Virus record (IMG/VR): IMGVR_UViG_3300048768_000033
Span: 1-45,591 of that record
Strand: one strand, 5' to 3'
Source: a virus
Length of the DNA: 45,591 nt
This document shows positions 5,963 to 45,591 of the stretch, piece by piece. Made by a program: the position numbers and the translations under genes. A model generated the notes under the pieces. It was given only the letters and a program-made list of their open reading frames with translations. It was not told where the DNA came from and ran no database searches. The first letter of the stretch is position 1. Each line of letters opens with the position of its first letter.

Positions 5963-6148
5963 TCATTGTCCTTGTTTCGATCGATCGTACTTTCCGGCTT
6001 CAGGGAGAGCTTTTAGAATAGCAATATCGCAATCTGTAAAAACAGGTTGTCTCCCAAATTTTTCAAGTTTGTTTTTTGCAGCGTACGCGTAAACCGTAGC
6101 TCTGCATCGACCAGACAATTTGATTGCCTGACTCGCCGTATATTTCAT
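5963..6148 (-). CDS. Small helix-turn-helix DNA-binding protein
   Basis: The 61-residue product reads like a MerR/excisionase-type helix-turn-helix: TASQAIKLSGRCRATVYAYA followed by a basic linker and a second helical part with DIAILKALPEAG. It has a strong GGAGGC site. It could be a small regulator. Its stop lies just upstream, in the minus sense, of the promoter at 5921. Confidence 0.6.
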   Translation of the reverse strand: MKYTASQAIKLSGRCRATVYAYAAKNKLEKFGRQPVFTDCDIAILKALPEAGKYDRSKQGQ

Positions 6149-6179
6149 GATGCCTCCTATAATTTAAACTCTCTGTTTT
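6140..6179. repeat. 40-bp direct repeat, copy 1
   Basis: This stretch is identical to 7367-7406. In both places it holds the last codons (NREFKL then stop) of one gene, a GGAGGC ribosome site and the first codons of the next gene. It is therefore a duplicated gene junction. Confidence 0.9.
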
Positions 6180-6393: not shown

Positions 6394-6539
6394 GGGCACC
6401 CAGCCGTCTCTTGTTCCTCGACATATTCCCGATACGCCGAATCTGCAATTCTGTCCGCGTTTTTCGCACCTGCCCCGAAAATTAGCGCAACCAGTAGAAA
6501 TCCCGCATAAGCCAACCCGATGATTAACCAGCCGTTCAT
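6390..6539 (-). CDS. Single-span membrane microprotein (49 aa)
   Basis: The product has a hydrophobic segment at about residues 4-22 (LIIGLAYAGFLLVALIFG) and a charged, acidic tail. ATGA overlaps join it to both neighbours, so it is translated as part of a chain. No recognised function. Confidence 0.6.
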   Translation of the reverse strand: MNGWLIIGLAYAGFLLVALIFGAGAKNADRIADSAYREYVEEQETAGCP

Positions 6540-7375
6540 GATTTTTTCCAGCTTTCAATCATGAGCCGTTCTATCGGGAGCCACTTGTCCAGGAGGAGCC
6601 ATCCATCTATCAAAGGCTGTATTTTTTCGATAATTGCATCGTAACATTCTCCATTCGTATCTATACCAAGACGACTTTCCCAATGCTCCCGTTGCCAAGG
6701 CATGGGAACGATCCCTTTAGTTTTTATCTTTACAAAACCGGGGATGCTTATGTGAGACCAATAGATGTACCCTTCCGACGTGATGTTCCCTTTCGACGTG
6801 ATGTTCCCTTCCGACGTGATGTACCCTTTCGACCAGATGTTCCCTTCCGACGTGATGTTCCCTTCCGACGTGATGTTCCCTCCCGACGTGATGTACCCTT
6901 TCGACCAGATGTTCCCTTCCGACGTGATGTTCCCTTCCGACGTGATGTTCCCTTTCGACGTGATGTTCCCTTCCGACGTGATGTACCCTTTCGACCAGAT
7001 GTTCCCTTCCGACCAGATGTTCCCTTTCGACCAGATGTTCCCTTCCGACGTGATGTACCCTTCCGACGTGATGTACCCTCCCGACCAGATGTTCCCTTCC
7101 GATGTGATGTTCCCTTCCGACCAGATGTACCCTCCCGACGTGATGTTCCCTTCCGACGTGATGTTCCCTTCCGACCAGATGTTCCCTTCCGACCAGATGT
7201 TCCCTTTCGACGAGATGTACCCTCTCGACGTGATGTTCCATTCCGACGTGATGGATACTATATTTTCCCCGACGTCACACCACGGGATGTCATCAAACTC
7301 CACATCCTCGGTAAAAACGAGTTTACCGCCAGTCTCTGCAATAAGTTTTTTTAAATCCTCAACAGAATATTTCAT
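6536..7375 (-). CDS. Hexapeptide-repeat beta-helix-like protein
   Basis: The 279-residue product has a short N-terminal region (1-41), then 27 tandem six-residue units of pattern I-[T/W/S]-S-x-[G/W]-[N/Y] (about 42-203), and a C-terminal region with several Trp residues (about 210-279). The regular Ile every six residues would suit a beta-helix or beta-solenoid. Position 2 is almost always Thr or Trp, giving a two-letter pattern along the protein. It starts behind a GGAGGC site within the second copy of the 40-bp repeat. I know no exact family; a binding or structural role is inference. Confidence 0.7.
   Translation of the reverse strand: MKYSVEDLKKLIAETGGKLVFTEDVEFDDIPWCDVGENIVSITSEWNITSRGYISSKGNIWSEGNIWSEGNITSEGNITSGGYIWSEGNITSEGNIWSGGYITSEGYITSEGNIWSKGNIWSEGNIWSKGYITSEGNITSKGNITSEGNITSEGNIWSKGYITSGGNITSEGNITSEGNIWSKGYITSEGNITSKGNITSEGYIYWSHISIPGFVKIKTKGIVPMPWQREHWESRLGIDTNGECYDAIIEKIQPLIDGWLLLDKWLPIERLMIESWKKS
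6767..7252. repeat. 18-bp tandem repeat array (27 units)
   Basis: About 486 bp of near-perfect 18-bp units encode the hexapeptides of 6536-7375. The main variation is a switch between ACG (Thr) and TGG (Trp) codons and between AAC (Asn) and TAC (Tyr). The period carries no stop codons in several frames, so long shadow frames on both strands are an artefact of the array. Such arrays can change copy number by slippage or recombination. Confidence 0.93.
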
Positions 7376-7406
7376 GATGCCTCCTATAATTTAAACTCTC
7401 TGTTTT
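7367..7406. repeat. 40-bp direct repeat, copy 2
   Basis: Identical to 6140-6179. It contains the end of the 17-residue reading frame 7384-7437, the ribosome site and the start of 6536-7375. Confidence 0.9.
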
Positions 7407-9194: not shown

Positions 9195-9494
9195 TTATTT
9201 GTCATGAATTATTTTCTTAATATCTCCGAATTTACCCCGTTCGTACCGAGCTTTCCGCTTTTCCGGCGTCTGTTTCTGGTGGTTTTTATACCAATCTTTA
9301 CCGCTTTTTCGACCCGGTTTTGGCCGCGAAACGACATAATCGAAGTCGTCTTTGGTGTACTCAATAGGCGACGCCCCGCGGATTCCGGCGGGTGTTCCGA
9401 CCTTTCCCCGGCGTCCAGCCTTGAGCAGCAGTAATCTTACGTGACCGGCGGTAAGCCCTGTCAGTTCTGCGATTTTTTGAGCGGTGTAGGTCAT
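9195..9494 (-). CDS. Helix-turn-helix DNA-binding protein (99 aa)
   Basis: The N-terminal part (YTAQKIAELTGLTAGHVRLL, about 3-22) is a clear helix-turn-helix, followed by a basic segment and a Lys/Arg-rich C-terminal tail (PEKRKARYERGKFGDIKK). It overlaps the SbcD-SbcC stop by 4 bases, so it is co-translated. It may be a regulator or a genome-bound accessory protein. Confidence 0.6.
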   Translation of the reverse strand: MTYTAQKIAELTGLTAGHVRLLLLKAGRRGKVGTPAGIRGASPIEYTKDDFDYVVSRPKPGRKSGKDWYKNHQKQTPEKRKARYERGKFGDIKKIIHDK

Positions 9495-12400
9495 CTGTAC
9501 ATCTCCTTGATCTGTATTTTGTTCGAAATATAATTCTTTGCATCCGGCGTGTGGCTGATTATGATTACTTTCTCGTCGCGATAGTACGTTTCTTGCATCG
9601 CGTAAAAAATAGGCACAGTCGGGATGTCAATCGCGCTGTCTGCTTCGTCGGCAATAAGCGGTGAGTATTCGATACGCGATCGAGAATTCCTGATTTGGAT
9701 CAGCGCCTTGATATACGCGTCGTTCATCATCGCGCGTTCTCCGACGCTGTAGGAAGTGAATGATTTTTCAAGTCCAGTTCGATTGTCGTGCACCATTATG
9801 TCGAAGTAGTCCACAATTTTTGACGCTCCCTGTTTTTGCGTTCGTGTCCTAAAAGTGTACGCTCCGTCTCTCCACGGTTCCAAAATTTCAGTTGCCGCCT
9901 GATCGATTGTTTCGGCTACGGTATCGAGTTCCATAGCCGGGATTTTGTCGGATCGAAGCTGCGTAGCGATATACTTCCATCGAGCAAGAAGCTCCGTCGA
10001 GGTTGCGACAAATTCACTTACTGCTTTTAGATCGTCGGAGCGTTGTTTTGAAGCAAGGATTTGATTTTTGATTTCGTGTATTTGCGTTTCAAGTTTTCCG
10101 ACCTCGACGAGGATTGCTGAGTAAGTAGATTGTAAGGACGCGATTTCTTCCAATGCGGTTTTGACTTGATCGTCAATCGTGACATTGAGATTGTATCCGA
10201 TTTTGCAAAGGGTCGTTATTTCTGTTGTCAGTTCGTCAAGTCGTTTTTGTTTCGCTTCGATTGTCGCTTGAGCCGCGAGTCCGTCTTTAATTTTGGATTC
10301 GATTGCCATTCGATTAATAGTGCAAGGCTCGTTGTCGATTACAGATTCGATCGGTTCAAGCACGGGCGCAGGCGTTGAGAGTTTATTTGGTACCGGCTGT
10401 AGTGTAGGCTCGATAGGTTCAATTAGTTTGGCAAGTTCTGTTTTTGCAGTCTCAAGTTTTTTCTGCGCGTCTACATACGGTATCTTTCCGCACGATTCGC
10501 ACGGTTTCGCGGCATGGTCGATATCAAATTTGTATTTAGCAAGTTGCGAGTCGTAAGAGGATTTTTTAGATTTGTAATCGTTATCAATCCGATTGTTTTC
10601 TACTTTGATTCTAAGCTGCAATTCTCCGAGTAGTTTATTGTAGTTGTTCATAGCGGTATCATATGCGTTACGCTTCTTGTTGTTTCTAAAGATTACTTGA
10701 TCGCGTTCTGTCATCCGTGCAAGTCGTTCATCGTCGAGTTTGACGATATGCTGATTGTGAGACAGATTTGATATTGTGATTCGGAGCGATTTTATTGTGT
10801 CTGCGAGACTATCTCGTTTAGTTTCCGCTTCACGGATAGCTTTCGTGTCTACGGCTTCCCGCGCTTTTTCTTTCTCGTTCGCCTTCTGTTGCTCAATCAG
10901 AAGATAAAGGTTATCCTTTTTATCCTCAAAAACCTGCTCGCATATAGTCTGCTCGTCGATTTTGGCAAGATATCTTTTGCTCAGATCCTCGCCTTGATCT
11001 TTCAAAACCTGCACGTCCGCTGCAACAGACTCAACGCCCTTGATCCATCCGGTTTTTTCTGTGATTTCAACATCAATCCGCTTTACGTTACCATTCGCGG
11101 TTTCAAGTGCCTTCTCGTGGTCTATCCCAGCTATTGCCTGGACGAGCTTCTGTATTTCCGTCCGGCTAGCGTTCATTAACCCAGCCTCGGCAATCTTCCC
11201 GTCAATCTTGTACCCCTGTCCAGGCTGAACGTAGAAAGAAGTCAAAAGATAATCAACGAACGATCCGTATAGTTCCTCACATACGGTTTTCATTTCTTCG
11301 AACGTGCCTTTCCTTAGGATTTCGATTCCCTCGACTTGCAAAGAGCAAGAAACTTTTTGCCCCTTGATGTTGATCTCGTGATAGTGGTTTTCATTATTTA
11401 GTTTGATCTGCTTCCGAATCGAACCCGATCCATCGAACCACTCCCATATAGATGACGGTCGTCCGCTCTTGGGGAGCTTGCCGACTGTATCTGGATACGG
11501 CGAGAAAAAAGACGCTGCGAAAGATTTTCCATCTCCGTTGTCGCCCGCGAAAAGATTGAGCTTGTCGCGTAATTGTGATTGATTCATCGAGAATGACTTA
11601 CCTCCGAATCCGATACAGCCTTCAACTTCGACGCTTTCAACCGTGACTTTTCTCGGAGGTTTTGGAGGTGTGGCGGTTTTGTGATCGAGAACTTCCACGA
11701 GAGAGAGGGTTTCCGGTTCAATCGATGGATAGAAAAGCTTAAATAGTTCCGATAGATTCGACGTTTCCGCCTGATCGCGGGTGATGCGTTTAGATTCGAT
11801 GCGTTTTGATTCGTATGTGATCCGGCTCCAGGGGTGCTTCATCATCGTTTCGATTGCTTTGCTTTCGGCCTCTGACACCTCGTTTTCCAAATGCAGCCAA
11901 TAGGCCACGTTCGGATCGTAAGACGCAAGCGGTGCGTAGATTTTCTCTCGTCGAGGAGTTCCGTATGGAAGACGGGTGATATGCGTTTCGTATTTCCCAA
12001 TTTGATTACCGTTGAGTGTTGCATCTATAGTCAGTCCTGTCTCAACCAAATTCATAGCCGGAATAAATCCCGTGCAGCCCCAGTCCTCGCTCCAGCTCCC
12101 AGCGTATCCGCCGCATACTTTATTGAACTCAAAAGGCAAGTGAATATGACCTGAGCTTATTCGCGTCAATCCGCATTCTGCAAGATCGTCCGTTCGTATG
12201 AACACGGCCGCGCTTTTTTTCTTCGGGTCGGTTTCGTTTTCTTGTGAGTAATCGCTGATTGTTCCGTGTATTGCAAGAATTGCTGGAACTGATTCGAACT
12301 GTAATCGCATCGGAGCGACGTACTCGCGGAGATAATCCACATGAGTAGGATAGCCTGTGTCTTGCTGGATACGCGACGGGATCAATTCCGGGATTCCGAA

Positions 12401-12802
12401 AAGAACGGCATCGAGTCGTCCGCCCCATCCGGTATCAAAGTTGACTTTCCGAATAGTCCCGTTGTTGCCTTCGTTTCCGAAGTATCCATACGTCCATCCC
12501 GGTCGCATCAACACGAAGCCCATCCGCTCAAGCGGTGCATACATGTCCTCAGTCTCGTGGCCTGGCGTGCCTACAACACCAGCGCACGGACATATTTCGA
12601 GAAGCTTCTGCATGAAGCCGTGCAGTTGGTTAAGTTCTTTCGAAAGATAAAAATTGCAGTCATGAAGATCACCAGGGAAAAGTACAAAATCAATGTTGTT
12701 TTTTTCAACCGCTTTTATGATCGCCGGAAAAACTGTTTCGACAAGAATCGTCATGTTTTTAGGAGTGGTTGATAAATCTGGGATCTCAATATAACGAATC
12801 AT
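9491..12802 (-). CDS. Fused SbcD-SbcC (Mre11-Rad50-like) nuclease-ATPase
   Basis: The 1103-residue chain begins with a metallophosphoesterase (about 1-390): PGDLHD, GTPGHE, AIHG and SSGHIHLP match motifs II-V, while the first D-x-H motif is altered to DLS. The second part is SbcC/Rad50-like: Walker A GDNGDGKS near residue 420, long charged coiled coils, a CESC zinc hook near residue 766, second coil, then the signature SVGERAMMN, Walker B IADEADSAID and a late ISHT switch. Cellular systems use two separate proteins. It should process ends, hairpins or branched DNA in recombination-based replication. Start ATG follows AGGGAG. The downstream gene overlaps it. Confidence 0.88.
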   Translation of the reverse strand: MIRYIEIPDLSTTPKNMTILVETVFPAIIKAVEKNNIDFVLFPGDLHDCNFYLSKELNQLHGFMQKLLEICPCAGVVGTPGHETEDMYAPLERMGFVLMRPGWTYGYFGNEGNNGTIRKVNFDTGWGGRLDAVLFGIPELIPSRIQQDTGYPTHVDYLREYVAPMRLQFESVPAILAIHGTISDYSQENETDPKKKSAAVFIRTDDLAECGLTRISSGHIHLPFEFNKVCGGYAGSWSEDWGCTGFIPAMNLVETGLTIDATLNGNQIGKYETHITRLPYGTPRREKIYAPLASYDPNVAYWLHLENEVSEAESKAIETMMKHPWSRITYESKRIESKRITRDQAETSNLSELFKLFYPSIEPETLSLVEVLDHKTATPPKPPRKVTVESVEVEGCIGFGGKSFSMNQSQLRDKLNLFAGDNGDGKSFAASFFSPYPDTVGKLPKSGRPSSIWEWFDGSGSIRKQIKLNNENHYHEINIKGQKVSCSLQVEGIEILRKGTFEEMKTVCEELYGSFVDYLLTSFYVQPGQGYKIDGKIAEAGLMNASRTEIQKLVQAIAGIDHEKALETANGNVKRIDVEITEKTGWIKGVESVAADVQVLKDQGEDLSKRYLAKIDEQTICEQVFEDKKDNLYLLIEQQKANEKEKAREAVDTKAIREAETKRDSLADTIKSLRITISNLSHNQHIVKLDDERLARMTERDQVIFRNNKKRNAYDTAMNNYNKLLGELQLRIKVENNRIDNDYKSKKSSYDSQLAKYKFDIDHAAKPCESCGKIPYVDAQKKLETAKTELAKLIEPIEPTLQPVPNKLSTPAPVLEPIESVIDNEPCTINRMAIESKIKDGLAAQATIEAKQKRLDELTTEITTLCKIGYNLNVTIDDQVKTALEEIASLQSTYSAILVEVGKLETQIHEIKNQILASKQRSDDLKAVSEFVATSTELLARWKYIATQLRSDKIPAMELDTVAETIDQAATEILEPWRDGAYTFRTRTQKQGASKIVDYFDIMVHDNRTGLEKSFTSYSVGERAMMNDAYIKALIQIRNSRSRIEYSPLIADEADSAIDIPTVPIFYAMQETYYRDEKVIIISHTPDAKNYISNKIQIKEMYR

Positions 12803-12974
12803 TGTTAATCTCCCTGTCTCTGTCTAGTTCCCATATTTGCTGTTGCAAAGTGTCGAGCTTGACATTAAGATCGGCCAAAAGGATGAAAAGATTTTTGTTG
12901 ATTTCTCCGAGTTCGGTGTCGTCATAGAAAACATCGTCTATGGCAGACAGTGCTGTTTTTAATAAGTCTTTCAT
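12786..12974 (-). CDS. Small coiled-coil protein (62 aa)
   Basis: The product is acidic and helical (LFILLADLNVKLDTLQQQIW), consistent with a short coiled coil. GAGGG precedes the ATG, and the gene overlaps both neighbours, the nuclease-ATPase downstream and 12971-13189 upstream. It might be a partner of one of them. Confidence 0.6.
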   Translation of the reverse strand: MKDLLKTALSAIDDVFYDDTELGEINKNLFILLADLNVKLDTLQQQIWELDRDREINNDSLY

Positions 12975-13189: not shown

Positions 13190-13299
13190 ATTTTACATCC
13201 TCCTGCTTGCCATAACGCGAATGCAGCTACTAGTTCGCTTCTGGTTTTTCTACCGAACCTATAAAGCATTATCATATATTTAATATCAATATAAGTCAT
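13186..13299 (-). CDS. Micro-gene (37 aa) in the recombination block
   Basis: The frame opens at ATG 13299 behind GGGAGGGTTCGGC, inside the last codons of 13286-14383, and ends by overlapping the start of 12971-13189. The product is basic and helical (YRFGRKTRSELVAAFALWQA). The strong ribosome site and overlaps on both sides support translation. Confidence 0.6.
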   Translation of the reverse strand: MTYIDIKYMIMLYRFGRKTRSELVAAFALWQAGGCKI

Positions 13300-14383
13300 G
13301 CCGAACCCTCCCTAATTCCGGTATTTGCTTTTCAAGCGATTCGAGATTGGCAATCGCTTTTTCCCAAGATATTTTTTTTGTAGAAAGAGTATCGGCTTCC
13401 GGTGTTTCCTTGAGCCATTTGGTCATGCCTGATACAAGATTAGTCCACAATGTTTTTCCGTCGGGGCCAATGCCTGACGGGATAAAGTTGGTCTCAATGT
13501 ATTTTTCGAAAACGTAAATAAGACGTTCCACCGGAGGAAGCGATTTAATATCAAGTTCCTCGTTCGCCGGAGAAATATCAAATGATCCCACACTTCCCGC
13601 GCTTTCGGTTGGTGTGATATCGATTATTTTATTTTCGATTCGTTCTTGTTCGACTGGTTGGTGTAATACCCCTCTCGATAGTGCGCTCAATCGTGCCGCG
13701 GTTTCCGCTTTCAGCACCGCCCTTGACCGGCGAACTTTCGCGAAAAACATCCGGCCTTCTTTTAATTCTTCTTGCTTGTATCCGGTCGGCATGTATGCAA
13801 GCTCGCGGATTGTTTTAACGAAAGCTTTCGTTTCCGCTTTTGCGTGTGCAAATTTTAGTTCCTTATCGAGACATAACCTGCGCGATTCTGGAGTGGAATA
13901 TTTTTTGGGGTCTTCGCCCCACATGATGACGCATCGTTCCCAGGCATTGTATTCACTCGTGCATGTCGATGATTTTCTCATCGTTCCGTCCTCGGTCAAT
14001 CGCTCGCTTACTTTAGTTACGCGTCGCCCGACTATCATCTTTCGAAAAGTCGGTTCCTCTATAAGCGATTTTATGAGCATAGGATTAATATCTATCTCCT
14101 CGATTATAGCCTCGCTCATGGGTACACCAACGCCGGAAATTCCGCAAGCGTCCGCAATCTCGTACATAAGATTGGGCTGCGGCATGTATGACCCTCCTCC
14201 GACCGGAGAAAAAGATTCTGCGAGTTTGAGCGGATTGAAAAGCACTTCTGACACAACCACGTCGTATTCGTCGGGAAGTTCGTTGATTGCGTCGAAATTG
14301 ATATACACGTTTTTATCCTCCGGGTTACGTTTTGACAGTCTGTTTTTTTGTTCTTCGTTTCCGTACAAGATGTTCTTGCTCAT
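13286..14383 (-). CDS. Putative single-strand annealing recombination protein
   Basis: The 365-residue product follows a GGTGGGGG site. A central region (about 80-230) has the helix-rich pattern AHAKAETKAFVKTIRELA then MPTGYKQEELKEGRMFFAKV, resembling the part of phage annealing proteins in which conserved A-x-T-x-A and R-x-x-x-G/P positions occur. The C-terminus is a separate helical tail. It stands directly before the SbcD-SbcC gene with two small genes between, which fits a nuclease plus annealing pair. Assignment is by context and weak pattern; another ssDNA-binding function is possible. Confidence 0.45.
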   Translation of the reverse strand: MSKNILYGNEEQKNRLSKRNPEDKNVYINFDAINELPDEYDVVVSEVLFNPLKLAESFSPVGGGSYMPQPNLMYEIADACGISGVGVPMSEAIIEEIDINPMLIKSLIEEPTFRKMIVGRRVTKVSERLTEDGTMRKSSTCTSEYNAWERCVIMWGEDPKKYSTPESRRLCLDKELKFAHAKAETKAFVKTIRELAYMPTGYKQEELKEGRMFFAKVRRSRAVLKAETAARLSALSRGVLHQPVEQERIENKIIDITPTESAGSVGSFDISPANEELDIKSLPPVERLIYVFEKYIETNFIPSGIGPDGKTLWTNLVSGMTKWLKETPEADTLSTKKISWEKAIANLESLEKQIPELGRVRHDLY

Positions 14384-20559: not shown

Positions 20560-21471
20560 TTAAAATATTTCACCACAAACCATTCTATAATTATTTAAAA
20601 TAAAATTACCATTGCTTTGAAACTTGACAATTCCAAAACCTTGATTATATCTATTAAGTGGTGCATAACTTGCAGCATCCTTCGAGCCGAGCCAACCTAT
20701 AGAATTTAAATTGAATAGCTTGTCTTTATCGATATGTACTTTTGTTTCGGAATCGGTACGATGAAAATGTCCACATACGAAATGATCATGGATAAACCCC
20801 CATCCCTTTGAGCATACCTTCTGCACGCCCCCACCGCTGTAAAATTCGTGTCCGTGAAGGAAATATAATTTACCCACTTTGTAGGGCTCTATTATGTATT
20901 CAATGTCTAATCGTGATAAGCCGAGTCTTTCTGCCAAAAAACCTTCAAGCATATCCGCAAGAGCTTCGGCACCGGTCATAATATACCTCTCCATTCGCGA
21001 TTCGTGGTTCCCCATTTTATAGCGGATTTTTGCATCGGGGAATCTTAATCGCAAATCGGCCAAAACTTTTTTTGTGGTGTCAATTTCATTCTTGACAGAC
21101 TTTTTGAGTTTGCGATCAACTTTAACAAAGCAGGATACCTCATACATGTCTATAAGGTCACCGATTATGTCAATGTCTGTAATTTTTTGCTGTTCAGCAA
21201 ACTCAAGCATTTTTTCCCATGCTAAAACATCGTGATAGGGACAATGCGGATCGGCAATTATCAAACTCGTTCTGTCGTTGTCTATCGCAATTTCTTTTTG
21301 TTTAAGTTGTATTATGTCTTTATTATCGAGCGAAAATTTTATTTCTCTGGCTAAATTGTCTTGTATTTTTAAACCATCTTTTAGCAATTGCCTTGTCAAG
21401 GGTTCGCTTTGTTTTAAACATTCACGTTCAATTGCAACCGCATGATACCATAGCGTTGGACTTATTTTCAT
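20560..21471 (-). CDS. Calcineurin-like metallophosphoesterase
   Basis: The 303-residue product starts behind AAAGGAGAGCAT. The N-terminal 75 residues are helical, then the phosphoesterase motifs appear in order: ADPHCPYHD (D-x-H), IIGDLIDMYE (GDxxD), KMGNHESRME (GNHE), FLHGHE and CGHFHRTD (GHxH). All metal-binding residues are present. Position next to the primase-helicase suggests a nucleic-acid or nucleotide substrate, but this is inference. Confidence 0.85.
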   Translation of the reverse strand: MKISPTLWYHAVAIERECLKQSEPLTRQLLKDGLKIQDNLAREIKFSLDNKDIIQLKQKEIAIDNDRTSLIIADPHCPYHDVLAWEKMLEFAEQQKITDIDIIGDLIDMYEVSCFVKVDRKLKKSVKNEIDTTKKVLADLRLRFPDAKIRYKMGNHESRMERYIMTGAEALADMLEGFLAERLGLSRLDIEYIIEPYKVGKLYFLHGHEFYSGGGVQKVCSKGWGFIHDHFVCGHFHRTDSETKVHIDKDKLFNLNSIGWLGSKDAASYAPLNRYNQGFGIVKFQSNGNFILNNYRMVCGEIF

Positions 21472-24593: not shown

Positions 24594-25064
24594 ATGGCAT
24601 TCCCGGAAAACTTTGACAATACTAAGACTCGATTCTCTGCATCTTCGCAGCCTACAAACAATGGTCGAAAGCCATCCAAGCTGCGTCGCTATATCAAAGA
24701 CAATAGCCTTTCAGCGCTCGATATCGTGCTCATGGTTAAACAGTTTTACGGTAAATCGAGAGAAGAAATACAGGCTATGGCGTCTGATTCGAAAGCGCCT
24801 ATTTTTATAAGCGGAATTGCGAAAGCACTATTGTCAGATTTTTTGCGCGGTCGCGTTGATGTTATAGCATGGCTGACTGATCGAGGGTTCGGGAAAGCGA
24901 TTGAAAAACTTGAGGTATCGGGTGCTATGGATATTACGCAATATACACCGGAACAGCGCAAACAGAGATTAGACGAACTAAGGAGAAGATCGGATGAACG
25001 AAACATTGAAAACAAGGTTTCTGGAACTGCAACAGAGACACGGGACAATACAGATAAAATGTAA
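24594..25064 (+). CDS. Terminase small subunit (putative)
   Basis: The 156-residue product begins with a flexible Asn/Gly-rich segment (NNGRKPSKLRRYI), followed by a helical DNA-binding-like region and a basic, Gln/Arg-rich C-terminal helix (YTPEQRKQRLDELRRR). Length, composition and place as the first late gene fit a small terminase that selects DNA for packaging. The large subunit is separated from it by the ParB and ABC-GNAT genes. Confidence 0.65.
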   Translation: MAFPENFDNTKTRFSASSQPTNNGRKPSKLRRYIKDNSLSALDIVLMVKQFYGKSREEIQAMASDSKAPIFISGIAKALLSDFLRGRVDVIAWLTDRGFGKAIEKLEVSGAMDITQYTPEQRKQRLDELRRRSDERNIENKVSGTATETRDNTDKM

Positions 25065-25608
25065 AGGTGCCGACGAACTGCCGTTTGACGTTATCAAAAA
25101 CTTCCAGGGCAAATTGAAAAAACTTTCACAAGAAAACGCAATAAGACTTGCAACTTCGTTATTCATAAACGGATTCTGCGCGCCGTTTTTTATTTGGGAG
25201 AATGGCGGCGAGCGATGGTGTATTGACGGGCATCAACGAGCGACGGTTCTAAACTCGATGCGCGAGGCCGGAATTATTCTGCCTAATCTATTCCCGGTGT
25301 GTTTTATTGATGCCGAGAACGAAGCGGACGCACGGCAGAAGCTTTTGACGATCACCTCGCAATACGGCGAGTTTCAGAAAGATCAGCTGGATGAGTGGAT
25401 GAGTAAGATTGACGAGGAAATTCGAGAGATGTTTAGATTGACAGATAAAGAGATTGCTATAAGTGTTGATGTTGACAATAAAGAATCCGAAGAAATAGAG
25501 TATAAAAATAAAATAGAAATAATAATTGAAGTCGATTCAAATAATGTTGAAAAATTATTCAACGAATTCACGAATAGAGGATTGAAATGCAAAATTTCAA
25601 CATTATAA
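24994..25608 (+). CDS. ParB/Srx-like protein
   Basis: The 204-residue product starts at ATG 24994 behind AAGGAGAAGATCGG, inside the end of the small terminase gene. The region around residues 60-90 (FIWENGGERWCIDGHQRATV) carries the DGHQR signature of ParB-type N-terminal domains, which bind CTP or act as nucleases in other contexts. The C-terminal 60 residues are acidic and AT-rich in coding. It overlaps the ABC-GNAT gene, and the pair looks like one cassette. Confidence 0.75.
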   Translation: MNETLKTRFLELQQRHGTIQIKCKGADELPFDVIKNFQGKLKKLSQENAIRLATSLFINGFCAPFFIWENGGERWCIDGHQRATVLNSMREAGIILPNLFPVCFIDAENEADARQKLLTITSQYGEFQKDQLDEWMSKIDEEIREMFRLTDKEIAISVDVDNKESEEIEYKNKIEIIIEVDSNNVEKLFNEFTNRGLKCKISTL

Positions 25609-26660
25609 AAAAACAAACAATATCAAAAAAAAGCTATAGAGTTGCTCAGATTTACGATCAATTTGATATGCAAGAAAATATTATTACTGAAAACTTTAAA
25701 GGCGCAATAGACATTCCCGACAGTTGGAATATAGGTGTTATTGTAGGGAAGTCGGGAAGCGATAAAAGTTCTATAGCTAAAGAATTGTTCTCTAAATACA
25801 TTTGCGAATTTCAATATAATGCCGAGAGTGTTATTGACGATTTCGAAGAAGACATAAATGCAGATGAACTTTTTTATATATTATCTTCAGTTGGATTTTC
25901 TTCTCCGCCGTCATGGTTAAAAACGTATTATAATCTATCAAATGGCGAAAAAATGAGAATAGACTTGGCCAGGGCACTATGTCAAAAAAAAGAGATCATA
26001 GCATTTGACGAATATACCTCGGTTATTGATAGAGAAGTTGCTCGAATAGGCTCTCTTGCTGTTCAAAAAACTATAAGAAAACTAAATAAAAAGTTTATAG
26101 CGATAACGTGTCATTTCGATGTTATTGAATGGCTTCAACCCGATTGGATTTTTTCAACCGATAGTATGACTAATCTTCCAAGGGGGCAACTTTGTCGAAG
26201 ACCTGAAATTAAAATTGAAATCAAACGAGTTAAAGGATATTGGGAATATTTTAGACGTTATCATTATTTGAATCATGAAATAAATAAATCAGGTCATGAA
26301 TATGTTGGTTTCTATAATGACAAGCCCATTGCATTTTGTTCTGTTATTAATTTTCCACACCCAATACATCATCACATGTGGAAGATACATAGAATCGTTG
26401 TTTTACCCGATTATCAAGGGATAGGTATATCTAAAAAAATGATGATAGCAATATCGAATATTTATAAACCAGAATATTTTGGTATTACTACATCTTTGAA
26501 TAATTTCGCTAAAATGTTAATGAAAGATAATAGATGGATTTTAATAAGAAGCGGCAGAACAGGAAAAAATAAAGGAAACAAATCATTAAACAAATCATTA
26601 TCTTTTAACCGAAATACTTATTCGTTCAGATTTTTGCATAATGGAGTAACATGTCCTTAA
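25587..26660 (+). CDS. ABC ATPase fused to GNAT-type transferase
   Basis: Of 357 residues, about 1-200 form an ABC-type ATPase: Walker A GKSGSDKS (54-61), signature LSNGEKM, Walker B IIAFDEYTSVID and the CH switch. Residue 59 is Asp where a Gly is normal in Walker A. Residues 210-357 resemble a GNAT domain: RRYHYLN and GFYNDKPIAFCSV, then RIVVLPDYQGIGISKKM, the acyl-CoA loop. Phage Mu Mom, which modifies adenine, is GNAT-related, so DNA modification is a fair hypothesis. It is AT-rich relative to neighbours and may be an acquired pair with the ParB gene. Confidence 0.78.
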   Translation: MQNFNIIKKQTISKKSYRVAQIYDQFDMQENIITENFKGAIDIPDSWNIGVIVGKSGSDKSSIAKELFSKYICEFQYNAESVIDDFEEDINADELFYILSSVGFSSPPSWLKTYYNLSNGEKMRIDLARALCQKKEIIAFDEYTSVIDREVARIGSLAVQKTIRKLNKKFIAITCHFDVIEWLQPDWIFSTDSMTNLPRGQLCRRPEIKIEIKRVKGYWEYFRRYHYLNHEINKSGHEYVGFYNDKPIAFCSVINFPHPIHHHMWKIHRIVVLPDYQGIGISKKMMIAISNIYKPEYFGITTSLNNFAKMLMKDNRWILIRSGRTGKNKGNKSLNKSLSFNRNTYSFRFLHNGVTCP

Positions 26661-33585: not shown

Positions 33586-34344
33586 TTGAAGATACTGATA
33601 GTTGGAAACGGGATTGTAGGAAAGAACATGATAAAGATTTTTCCAGATGCAGTCGTGCATGATCCTCCGCAAGGCATTTTTTGTGATCCTCAAATATGTT
33701 ATGACATTGCTTTTATTTGCGTTCCCACTCCCTGCGAGGAAGATGGAAAATGTTGCACTTCTATAGTCATAGATGCAATAAATTCGGTCAAGGCAAGAGT
33801 TTATTGCATTCGATCAACCATATCTCCCGGAACCTGTTCACGGATATCAAGCGAGTATGGAAAAAATATTGTGTTCATGCCTGAATATTACGGAGAAACT
33901 GTTCATGCAAATGGATATAAATACAATTTTATTATTTTAGGTGGAGACAGAAAAAACACCTCGCGAGTATGCGAAGCGTTTAAAAGCATAAACACCGGAG
34001 AATTAAAAATATTTCAAACTACATTTGAAACCGCAGAACTTGTTAAATATATGGAAAACAGTTTTTTAGCTACAAAGGTCACTTTTTGCAATGAGTTTTA
34101 CAGACTATCTTCCGCTTTGGGAGTGGACTATAATGAAATGCGAGAGCTCTTTGTAGTTGATCCGAGAGTTGGAAGGTCTCACACTTTAGTTTATGCAGAT
34201 CATCCGTATTATGAAAGTAAATGTCTGGATAAAGACATTCCTGCAATAATACAATTCGCAAAAAATGTAGGAATCGACATGCAACTAATGAAATCGGTTC
34301 GTGCAACAAACGACACATACAAAAAAGATAAGGGGATAAAATGA
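33586..34344 (+). CDS. UDP-glucose/GDP-mannose dehydrogenase-like protein, short form
   Basis: TTG start at 33586 behind GGAGGACACT. The product (252 aa) has the NAD-binding start LIVGNGIVGKNM, FICVPTPCEEDG, STISPGT, FMPEYYGE, the middle-domain helix with ELVKYMENSFLATKVTFCNE and the catalytic Cys in KCLDKD. Full enzymes are about 390-450 residues; the C-terminal nucleotide-sugar domain is missing here. It may act on a different sugar substrate or with a host partner. First gene of the cargo cassette. Confidence 0.75.
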   Translation: MKILIVGNGIVGKNMIKIFPDAVVHDPPQGIFCDPQICYDIAFICVPTPCEEDGKCCTSIVIDAINSVKARVYCIRSTISPGTCSRISSEYGKNIVFMPEYYGETVHANGYKYNFIILGGDRKNTSRVCEAFKSINTGELKIFQTTFETAELVKYMENSFLATKVTFCNEFYRLSSALGVDYNEMRELFVVDPRVGRSHTLVYADHPYYESKCLDKDIPAIIQFAKNVGIDMQLMKSVRATNDTYKKDKGIK

Positions 34345-35033
34345 CAGATTATTTTAATTTAGCAAAAAAAATACCTTCGATAGGAAACGGAGGTACAAGC
34401 ATTCCCCGTCAATTGCAAAATGCGGGTGCTGGAATAAAAGAAAACGAAATTATCATTGAGACCGGATCATGGTTTGGCTCTACGACCGGATTTGTGATGT
34501 CAGGAATTAAGCAAACACCGTTCACCCCGGAATATCATTGCTTCGACATGTGGATTACATATCCGCACCTTGTAACTCAGGCAAAAAAAATTGGTATCAC
34601 TCTCAAAGACGGACAATCTATTCTCGATATTTTTAAAAAGAACGTAGAACCATTTGGTATTGATCCCATAATCCATCAAGGAGATTTTATAGAACAGAAA
34701 TTTGAGACTGATAAAAAAATTGGTTTGGTAGTCGATGATATCTGCTCAAAAAAGCCAATGTTCGACCATCTGCTCGATTTAGTTATACCATTCTGTTATC
34801 CAGGAACGCTTTTCTTTCTCATGGATTTTTATTTTTACACAACTCACGATGTTATCAGACGAAAATACCAGCGTGACATTATGGAAAAAAATCAGGAAGC
34901 TTTTGAATTCGTAGAAAGACCGGCAAATTCTTATACCGCAATCTATCGATATAAAGGCGGAGCGGTAAGAAAGATTAGTAATCCTGAATATTTAAAAGAC
35001 TGGGTGGATGGAGAAGGAAATCGAGTACTATGA
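34341..35033 (+). CDS. Class I SAM-dependent methyltransferase-like protein
   Basis: The 230-residue product has the motif I strand and loop IIETGSWFGSTTGF, an acidic end of strand 2 (CFDMW), and GLVVDDICSKKPMFDHLLDL, consistent with a TylF/Methyltransf_24-like fold. The substrate is unknown; neighbours suggest a sugar. ATGA and overlap link it to both neighbouring cassette genes. Confidence 0.6.
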   Translation: MTDYFNLAKKIPSIGNGGTSIPRQLQNAGAGIKENEIIIETGSWFGSTTGFVMSGIKQTPFTPEYHCFDMWITYPHLVTQAKKIGITLKDGQSILDIFKKNVEPFGIDPIIHQGDFIEQKFETDKKIGLVVDDICSKKPMFDHLLDLVIPFCYPGTLFFLMDFYFYTTHDVIRRKYQRDIMEKNQEAFEFVERPANSYTAIYRYKGGAVRKISNPEYLKDWVDGEGNRVL

Positions 35034-36448
35034 AAATTTTAACCGCGTCTTTTAATTACGGGAACGGCGATAGTTACACGAAATTAGGAAAGGTTCTTGA
35101 GTATTCCGTCAAAAAGAATTGCCCTGGAGCAGAGTTCACATGGTTAAAGCTCCCAGCTCCGAAACGTAAAAAAGAAAATCCCACGTTCGATTCGAACAAC
35201 TATAAAATACAATTCTGGTTGGATTTTATCGAGAAAGCTAATGATGACGTTATCTTACTCGATGCAGATATGATTGTTTTGCATGATTTATCGGTTGCGT
35301 TTATAAAAGACTTTGACATAGGGTTATCATGCAGAAGTAACGGGCGAGGAGGGAAGGGGCGGCATGGAGCGAACCTCCCGTGGAATGGCGGGGCTGTTTT
35401 TGTAGCGAATACAGAGCCGGCTCGGCAGTTTATGCGCGACTGGGTGGCCGCGGATAATCTTTTATACGCAGAAGGCACTCACGGAGCAAGTCCGCTCCAT
35501 CAAAAATGGCGAACACAATTCGGAGGAATGAATCAGGCATCACTAGGATATCTACTTGCACAAAAAAAACATACTGCGATAGTTAAGCCGTTCGATTGTT
35601 TAAAATGGAATTCATGTGTTGAGCATTGGGACTTAGTTAATGACAAGACAATGATTATCCATGTCAAAGAACCTTTACGGAGAGCGGTTTTGTCAGGTGA
35701 CCGGAATGGACATGTCTTAGCGTTCGATATTTGGCAATCGCTCGCGCGAGAGTGCGGACTGAATATAAATATTAGTGAGACACCAGGATTAGCTCTTTTC
35801 AAATACACCTCGTACGAGCAATATTTGAATGCACAAAAAACGGCAGCAGTCGAAAAGCGTGAAAATGTATGGGTTAAACAACCGCATATTTCTTTTCTTG
35901 TCCGGTCGCTCAAAAAGAAAATCAATCCGAAGTTCGGATTATGCCACGGGACACGCAAAGGACTTGAGCAACAATATTTCATGGAACTTTTTCCAGGTTG
36001 TAAGGTTATAGGCACCGAGATTGCAGATTATGCTAAAGAAATTCCAAATACTGTTCAACATGATTTTAATAAAGTCAATGACGAATGGACGGGTAAGGCG
36101 GATTTTATTTATTCTAATGCGTTTGACCACGCGTTCGCTCCCGAACAGACTTTAAAAGTCTGGCTTTCTCAACTTTCTAAAAAGGGAATTCTCGTTATCG
36201 AACACACTCGATGCCATGCGAAAGAACCTTCAATTACCGATCCGTTTTCCTTTACTCACGATCAATTGACCGCGCTCGTTTCGGAATGGACGAAAAATAA
36301 ATATAGAGTAAGCACGATTATAACCTCACCTGTAAGCGATTTGAAAAAGAATCCCTTTATCACGCGATTTATTTTAATCGAAAGGAGTCCATCCGGTTAC
36401 GAAACTATCGAAGCGGCACGCGCTCAGGCGCTGGGACGTGGTAATTAA
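35030..36448 (+). CDS. Glycosyltransferase fused to methyltransferase-like domain
   Basis: Of 472 residues, about 1-240 form a GT-A-like domain with the D-x-D in ILLDADMIVLHD and WNGGAVFVANTEPA further on. Residues about 285-450 look like a class I methyltransferase: LCHGTRKGLEQQYFMELFPG, IGTEIAD, HDFN, and ADFIYSNAFDHAFAPEQ. Such a pairing would add and cap a sugar. The target could be phage capsid or tail, DNA, or host surface glycan. Confidence 0.7.
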   Translation: MKILTASFNYGNGDSYTKLGKVLEYSVKKNCPGAEFTWLKLPAPKRKKENPTFDSNNYKIQFWLDFIEKANDDVILLDADMIVLHDLSVAFIKDFDIGLSCRSNGRGGKGRHGANLPWNGGAVFVANTEPARQFMRDWVAADNLLYAEGTHGASPLHQKWRTQFGGMNQASLGYLLAQKKHTAIVKPFDCLKWNSCVEHWDLVNDKTMIIHVKEPLRRAVLSGDRNGHVLAFDIWQSLARECGLNINISETPGLALFKYTSYEQYLNAQKTAAVEKRENVWVKQPHISFLVRSLKKKINPKFGLCHGTRKGLEQQYFMELFPGCKVIGTEIADYAKEIPNTVQHDFNKVNDEWTGKADFIYSNAFDHAFAPEQTLKVWLSQLSKKGILVIEHTRCHAKEPSITDPFSFTHDQLTALVSEWTKNKYRVSTIITSPVSDLKKNPFITRFILIERSPSGYETIEAARAQALGRGN

Positions 36449-36953
36449 TCTTATCCCTAAAAACAGGACGATTGTCTTCGTAGAAGTCGGAGTTTATTTG
36501 GGGCAGATGGCTCGCAATCTTTTATCGAGGGTTCCGAATCTAATCTGGATAGGTGTAGACTCCTGGATGATCCCGGATCAAAACAGCGAGTATGTTAAGA
36601 GTGGAGCTATGATCGCGAAACTGTCGCAGAAAGAATTCGATTCCGCTTATTATTGCGTTGTTAAAATGGCATCGGAATATAAGGGGAGATCGAGCGTCGT
36701 TAGATGTGACAGCGCCGTAGGTGCATCGTTTTATAAAGACAGATCAATAGATTTTGTTTTTATCGATGCGGATCATTCTTATGAAGGGTGTTCACGCGAC
36801 ATAAAGGCATGGCTCCCAAAAGTCAAAGCGGGCGGAATGATTTCCGGCCACGATTACGGGACGAATCAGGGCAATGTGAAAAAAGCGGTTGACGAATTAT
36901 GTTCAGGATGTAAGACCGGAGATGACAATACTTGGTGGAAGGTGATTAAATGA
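36438..36953 (+). CDS. Class I SAM-dependent methyltransferase (Methyltransf_24-like)
   Basis: GTG start at 36438, overlapping the preceding gene by 11 nt. The 171-residue product has VFVEVGVYLGQMA (motif I), IGVDSW, VVRCDSAVGAS, and FVFIDADHSYEGC with the later GGMISGHDYG, all typical of this family. It closes the four-gene cargo cassette. Confidence 0.75.
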   Translation: MVINLIPKNRTIVFVEVGVYLGQMARNLLSRVPNLIWIGVDSWMIPDQNSEYVKSGAMIAKLSQKEFDSAYYCVVKMASEYKGRSSVVRCDSAVGASFYKDRSIDFVFIDADHSYEGCSRDIKAWLPKVKAGGMISGHDYGTNQGNVKKAVDELCSGCKTGDDNTWWKVIK

Positions 36954-45115: not shown

Positions 45116-45591
45116 ATGCCGGTAGTTTTAACTTCGAATTTTCAACGTTTGCCATATAATCACGGAGATTTGAATTCCTATCATGATGCAGTCATGCGTA
45201 CTATTCTTGCGGGAGGAATCGGAGGACTTTCTATTGAGGCAACTACTGCCGGATCGGCGATAACCGTAAGTCGTGGGTTCGCAGGAATTTATGATGGAAC
45301 TCTCGCGGGAAAAGGAGCGATAGAAGTTACAGTGTCCGGTAATATTACCACAGCGGGTGCATCTGCCAATCTATGGCACGCTTTGGAATTCTCGGTGTCG
45401 GGAACCGCGGTCACGTGGTATTTGACGCCGCTTGCAGGAGAGACAGATGAAAGCTTCATGAGTTTGACTATGAAAAATTATTACGATGGAAGTAAAAACG
45501 GTTATTATCGAATAGCGTCAAGAAGAATAATAGCTTTTGTATTCCTTCGAACTGCGCTTGCGGTAGGAAGAATAGTAAATTGTGAGAGTGG
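45116..45591 (+). CDS. Tail/baseplate protein, N-terminal part (continues at 3-539)
   Basis: ATG 45116 follows TTTAGGGG. The frame runs off the end of the window and continues at base 3 of the left end, total 295 residues. The N-terminal part (LTSNFQRLPYNHGDLNSYHD) and Gly/Ala/Thr-rich middle suit a structural baseplate or fibre-attachment protein. Function is assigned by position only. Confidence 0.7.
   Translation, partial: MPVVLTSNFQRLPYNHGDLNSYHDAVMRTILAGGIGGLSIEATTAGSAITVSRGFAGIYDGTLAGKGAIEVTVSGNITTAGASANLWHALEFSVSGTAVTWYLTPLAGETDESFMSLTMKNYYDGSKNGYYRIASRRIIAFVFLRTALAVGRIVNCES
45465..45591. repeat. Terminal direct repeat, right copy (circular join)
   Basis: Identical to 1-127; see the left copy. 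Removing one copy gives a closed circle of about 45,464 bp. Confidence 0.95.

Follow-up and report, generated by a model that had tools for sequence, protein, structure and literature searches.

A divergent single-chain SbcD-SbcC (Mre11-Rad50) fusion protein with an altered nuclease centre in a 45-kb phage genome

Introduction

The closest described systems are natural Mre11/Rad50 (SbcDC) fusions, thirteen of which were reported by Yoshida, Claverie and Ogata in 2011 (PMC3175470), with holders that include Mimivirus (R555), Bacillus phage 0305phi8-36, Clostridium kluyveri plasmids, Deferribacter, other bacteria, and eukaryotes. The published fusions are not monophyletic, they are abundant in viral metagenomes, and viruses, plasmids and transposons have been proposed as their source (PMC3175470). 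According to the same paper, nine to twelve residues were estimated to span the gap between the halves, the nuclease residues of R555 are changed at the D of GNHD and at the equivalent of Pfu H206, and the Bacillus phage 0305phi8-36 protein lacks the capping/helix-loop-helix (HLH) part and did not show one of the P-loop NTPase segments (PMC3175470). Here, we analyse an SbcD-SbcC fusion encoded by a small phage. A sequence-only reading of this DNA had implied that such a fusion was novel, which is not supported in view of the fusions, one of them from a Bacillus phage, published in 2011 (PMC3175470).

Results

The fusion gene lies in the early region of a probably complete genome

The window, i.e., the whole stretch of DNA that was analysed, is the entire virus record of 45,591 bases. 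Its bases 1-127 are identical to bases 45465-45591, which constitutes a perfect terminal direct repeat of 127 bp. Because the terminal 127 bp are identical, we take the contig as a probably complete genome, either circular (closing to 45,464 bases) or terminally redundant; the end overlap could be a true terminal repeat as an alternative to circle closure. The fusion ORF is located on the minus strand (the sequence-only reading gave no strand) within a leftward early region, alongside a helicase, a primase and a second phosphoesterase:

9491..12802, minus strand: SbcD-SbcC (Mre11-Rad50) fusion gene, 1103 aa (ORF reading, coding signal)
12810..12815, minus strand: ribosome-binding site AGGGAG, 7 nt before the ATG (read directly)
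11639..11683, minus strand: proline-rich linker of about 15 aa, residues 374-388 (sequence and start of the SbcC alignment)
9494-9195: next gene, starting on an ATGA overlap with the stop of the fusion ORF
20560-21471, minus strand: second metallophosphoesterase (PHROG 221)

Several other genes of this genome deserve a description. Upstream of the fusion gene, a 365-aa ORF (13286-14383, minus strand) had no counterpart in Pfam, in PHROG or in tblastn against phages, even with the limit relaxed to E=0.1; going by its position, its product might be guessed to be a recombination partner. At 6536-7375 (minus strand), a 279-aa protein with 18-nt/6-residue repeats of the SEGNIW/SEGNIT type matches the beta-solenoid families FapA, MinC_C and bactofilin, and a perfect 40-bp direct repeat, possibly a repeated leader sequence, lies on both sides of its gene (6140-6179 and 7367-7406). 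On the plus strand, the gene of a protein that combines an ABC-type ATPase with a GNAT acetyltransferase domain (25587-26660; PHROG 11143, E=4.9e-96) adjoins the terminase and a ParB/methyltransferase-like ORF at 24994-25608, while sugar-nucleotide dehydrogenase, glycosyltransferase and methyltransferase genes are found among the structural genes at 33586-36953.

SbcD and SbcC are joined in one uninterrupted reading frame

The SbcD and SbcC halves are joined in one protein. This had been claimed from the sequence alone for a product of 1103 residues, and it was confirmed by the uninterrupted ORF, by the in-frame coding signal over the junction and by the homology of both halves. The gene has one ribosome-binding site, and codon log-odds favoured the fusion frame in all 60-codon windows over residues 1 to 1080, with the junction window included. 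One may ask whether two separate genes were joined by an assembly error or an undetected frameshift: two near-identical contigs found through the terminase (L002 and L003) do not contain the fusion gene, so the locus is covered by no second contig among those compared. Against such an origin, both halves share the same frame over 1103 codons without a stop, the coding signal is steady at the junction, and the HLH and linker lie exactly where a fusion requires them. Direct inspection of the DNA between the halves also revealed no stop, no frameshift, and neither an internal ATG nor any start with a ribosome-binding site. We rejected an assembly chimera on the grounds of frame, coding signal and linker, and consider an artificial joining to be extremely unlikely.

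The C-terminal half carries all SbcC/Rad50 motifs

Downstream of the linker, the protein aligned with SbcC over nearly its full remaining length, and the following features were located:

9494..11638, minus strand: SbcC/Rad50 part, residues 389-1103 (hhalign to SbcC, PHROG 77)
11522..11545, minus strand: Walker A GDNGDGKS, residues 420-427 (alignment, motif reading)
11216..11233, minus strand: Q-loop region YVQPGQ, residues 524-529 (by alignment)
10490..10501, minus strand: zinc hook CESC, residues 768-771 (both Cys invariant in 14 rows)
9737..9748, minus strand: ABC signature SVGE, residues 1019-1022 (S, G and E invariant in the alignment)
9626..9649, minus strand: end of Walker B and D-loop DEADSAID, residues 1052-1059 (D, E and D invariant in the alignment)
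9545..9559, minus strand: H-loop ISHTP, residues 1082-1086 (His invariant in the alignment)

Residues 636-1099 matched PHROG 77 (E=5.8e-25), and in a profile comparison (hhalign) residues 388-1099 aligned to positions 4-632 of an SbcC profile with a probability of 99 and E=2.3e-19; this profile was built from 93 SbcCs, nearly all from phages, and is independent of PHROG 77. A motif alignment of 14 rows, which included the fusion protein, T4 gp46 and other phage SbcCs, contained 16 invariant columns, which fall in Walker A, at both cysteines of the hook, in the signature and Walker B, and at the Asp of the D-loop and the His of the H-loop. The Walker A, CESC, signature and Walker B that had been read from the letters as a complete Rad50/SbcC were thus all located and are represented among these invariant columns. 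Since all SbcC motifs are present, the ATPase of the fusion protein is complete as judged by its sequence.

The N-terminal half resembles SbcD/Mre11

The N-terminal half lacks a confident match in single-sequence searches, and its domains were delineated by profile, alignment and model:

12053..12802, minus strand: SbcD/Mre11-like metallophosphoesterase domain, residues ~1-250 (hhalign, 51-row alignment, AlphaFold2 and Foldseek)
11783..12052, minus strand: capping-like domain, residues ~251-340 (AlphaFold2 model of mixed, partly low confidence)
11684..11779, minus strand: helix-loop-helix, probable Rad50-binding element, residues 342-373 (AlphaFold2 helices 342-357 and 359-373)

Single-sequence searches with this half gave a Pfam Metallophos match at E=0.11, below cut-off confidence, and nothing relevant in the PDB. 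Compared with a profile of 85 SbcDs, however, it reached an hhalign score of 46.1 (P=4.7e-6), above the maximum of 23.9 for 200 shuffles and the 14.3 of the reversed sequence. In a 51-row SbcD motif alignment at low identity (12-21%), G44, D45, G81, H82, H179, G218, H221 and G235 were invariant, and D9 and H219 were also kept. While AlphaFold on the single sequence gave a poor model (pLDDT 35), the 51-row alignment raised the prediction to a mean pLDDT of 71.6 and a pTM of 0.70, and all 50 listed PDB matches of the resulting model in Foldseek were SbcD or Mre11 (best E=2.5e-10). Because the alignment rows are SbcDs, this model is biased to the Mre11/SbcD fold and counts as supporting evidence, not proof. 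The predicted helices 342-373 are positioned like the HLH of T. maritima Mre11, as described in PMC3175470.

The missing Pfam match above cut-off would be consistent with another calcineurin-like phosphoesterase, rather than Mre11, placed on a Rad50-like ATPase. The genome's other phosphoesterase, at 20560-21471, offers a direct comparison: with intact-looking D-x-H, GDLID, GNHE and GHFH motifs, it is weakly SbcD-like and scored 31.6 against the SbcD profile, below the fusion's N-terminal half. This difference, the uniformly Mre11/SbcD fold matches (though of a model that used an SbcD alignment) and the occurrence of SbcD before SbcC in phage operons as well make a non-Mre11 domain very unlikely. 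Profile and model together support an SbcD/Mre11 identity, with a nuclease domain, a capping domain and a probable Rad50-binding HLH. The metallophosphoesterase with GDLHD and GHIH that the sequence-only reading had named accordingly stands, with these motifs at residues 44-48 and 218-221, and the alignment-assisted model of this half returned this fold and not a different first domain.

Each metal site appears to have lost a ligand

In Mre11, motif I supplies D and H as metal ligands, motifs II and III supply D and N, respectively, motif IV contributes one H, and motif V a further two H. The corresponding positions in the fusion protein are:

12770..12778, minus strand: motif I, D9-L10-S11 (D-x-H in the family; His lost; alignment)
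12659..12673, minus strand: motif II, GDLHD, residues 44-48, kept (alignment)
12554..12562, minus strand: motif III, G81-H82-E83 (GNHD/E in the family; G81 and H82 invariant; no residue here in the Asn column, 116)
12266..12268, minus strand: motif IV, H179, kept (invariant in the alignment)
12140..12151, minus strand: motif V, GHIH, residues 218-221, kept (alignment)

The set of SbcD/Mre11 metal motifs (D-x-H, GD, GNHD/E, H, GHxH) is therefore incomplete in the fusion protein. Two of the seven ligands are gone, as the motif-I His is replaced by Ser11 and the motif-III Asn is absent, while the other five and the catalytic H82 are kept. Among the comparison SbcDs, GNH[DE] occurred in 85/85 and D-x-H in 81/85 (by regular expression), and both are absent here. 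The change of motif I to DLS had been noticed from the letters, and S11 indeed occupies that position in the alignment; the loss of the second ligand, the Asn of GNHD, had been missed, such that the change to the nuclease was understated. Going by the homology to P. furiosus Mre11, one ligand would be missing from either metal site, and the likeliest result is a nuclease whose activity is weakened or lost.

The retained residues could instead point to a fully active single-chain SbcCD, in which nearby residues compensate and DNA ends and hairpins are cut in an ATP-dependent manner; T79, H47 and E83 might act as replacement ligands near the altered motifs. The five kept ligands and H82, the fold and capping domain kept in the model, and the fact that the fusion is the phage's only SbcCD copy all speak for activity. 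With one ligand apparently lost per metal site and with GNH[DE] present in every comparison SbcD, we find full activity somewhat doubtful.

The fusion is uncommon among phage SbcC loci

No phage record was retrieved by tblastn with the whole protein at 1e-5, and at relaxed limits the matches were confined to the SbcC part (21-34% identity). Searches with the whole protein, with each half and with Walker A/B DNA patterns found no close relative in viral contigs, genome contigs, or phage and plasmid records, and no other SbcC or SbcD was found in the same 45.5-kb genome. A fused SbcD-SbcC was present in 0/144 SbcC-bearing loci and a separate SbcD in 137/144, in a sample that was picked for similarity to T5-like and SPO1-like SbcC, includes repeated records and is no phage census. 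The search for other fused proteins, proposed in the sequence-only reading, thus found its precedents in the literature (PMC3175470) and none in these loci. The fusion is real and uncommon.

Discussion

We favour, with modest confidence, a single-chain Mre11-Rad50 (SbcD-SbcC) whose nuclease is weakened or inactive and which keeps DNA-end binding and bridging. Two chains would meet at the ABC ATPase heads, at the dimer surface of Mre11 and at the zinc hook, yielding an M2R2-like ATP-gated clamp that would bind and tether phage DNA ends in replication and recombination. With cutting weakened or abolished, end binding and bridging would be the retained function. The HLH and a linker long enough for the fusion support the single-chain reading, and a 1:1 stoichiometry can reasonably be expected from the fusion. 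In E. coli, the nuclease-deficient SbcCD-H84Q retains most of its ATPase, with a decrease of about 15% (PMC6265447), so the clamp would not necessarily fail if cutting were lost. A stricter version, in which the protein is a natural nuclease-dead Mre11-Rad50 that serves the phage solely as an ATP-driven clamp or tether for DNA ends, is one that we entertain tentatively. The five retained ligands and H82, which would be needless in a long-dead nuclease, argue against it and against the favoured reading alike, and the low identity of the SbcD motif alignment likewise weighs against the latter. If the nuclease is dead, the protein would be a natural separation-of-function form that sets the structural role apart from the cutting role, and end-tethering alone would be reason enough for a 45-kb genome to retain it. 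A single polypeptide could also make structural work on Mre11-Rad50 simpler.

Compared with cellular Mre11-Rad50 and E. coli SbcCD, the fusion protein has the same domains and motifs and the same predicted N-terminal fold, whereas the cellular systems have two chains, intact nuclease motifs and a longer coiled coil (E. coli SbcC measures 1048 aa, the SbcC part here about 715 aa). Its SbcC half belongs with the two-chain phage systems (T5-like, SPO1-like, T4 gp47/gp46; PHROG 77), where SbcD is encoded upstream of SbcC, in the same order as in the fusion; these systems differ in having separate genes in every examined locus and intact nuclease motifs, at about 18-34% identity. With the published fusions it shares a single ORF with Mre11 N-terminal and Rad50 C-terminal, the status of sole copy in the virus and, as in most of them, the capping/HLH region and a short linker, here about 15 residues. 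Nuclease residues are altered in both R555 and this protein, but they are different residues (as compared from the paper's description), and set against the description of Bacillus phage 0305phi8-36 (PMC3175470), this is a 45-kb phage with a complete ATPase. The protein is therefore a very divergent member of the known SbcDC fusions and not a new kind. It extends the published set to a small phage, adding a case with a small, probably closed genome, an ATPase complete by its motifs and, by homology, one ligand lost per metal site.
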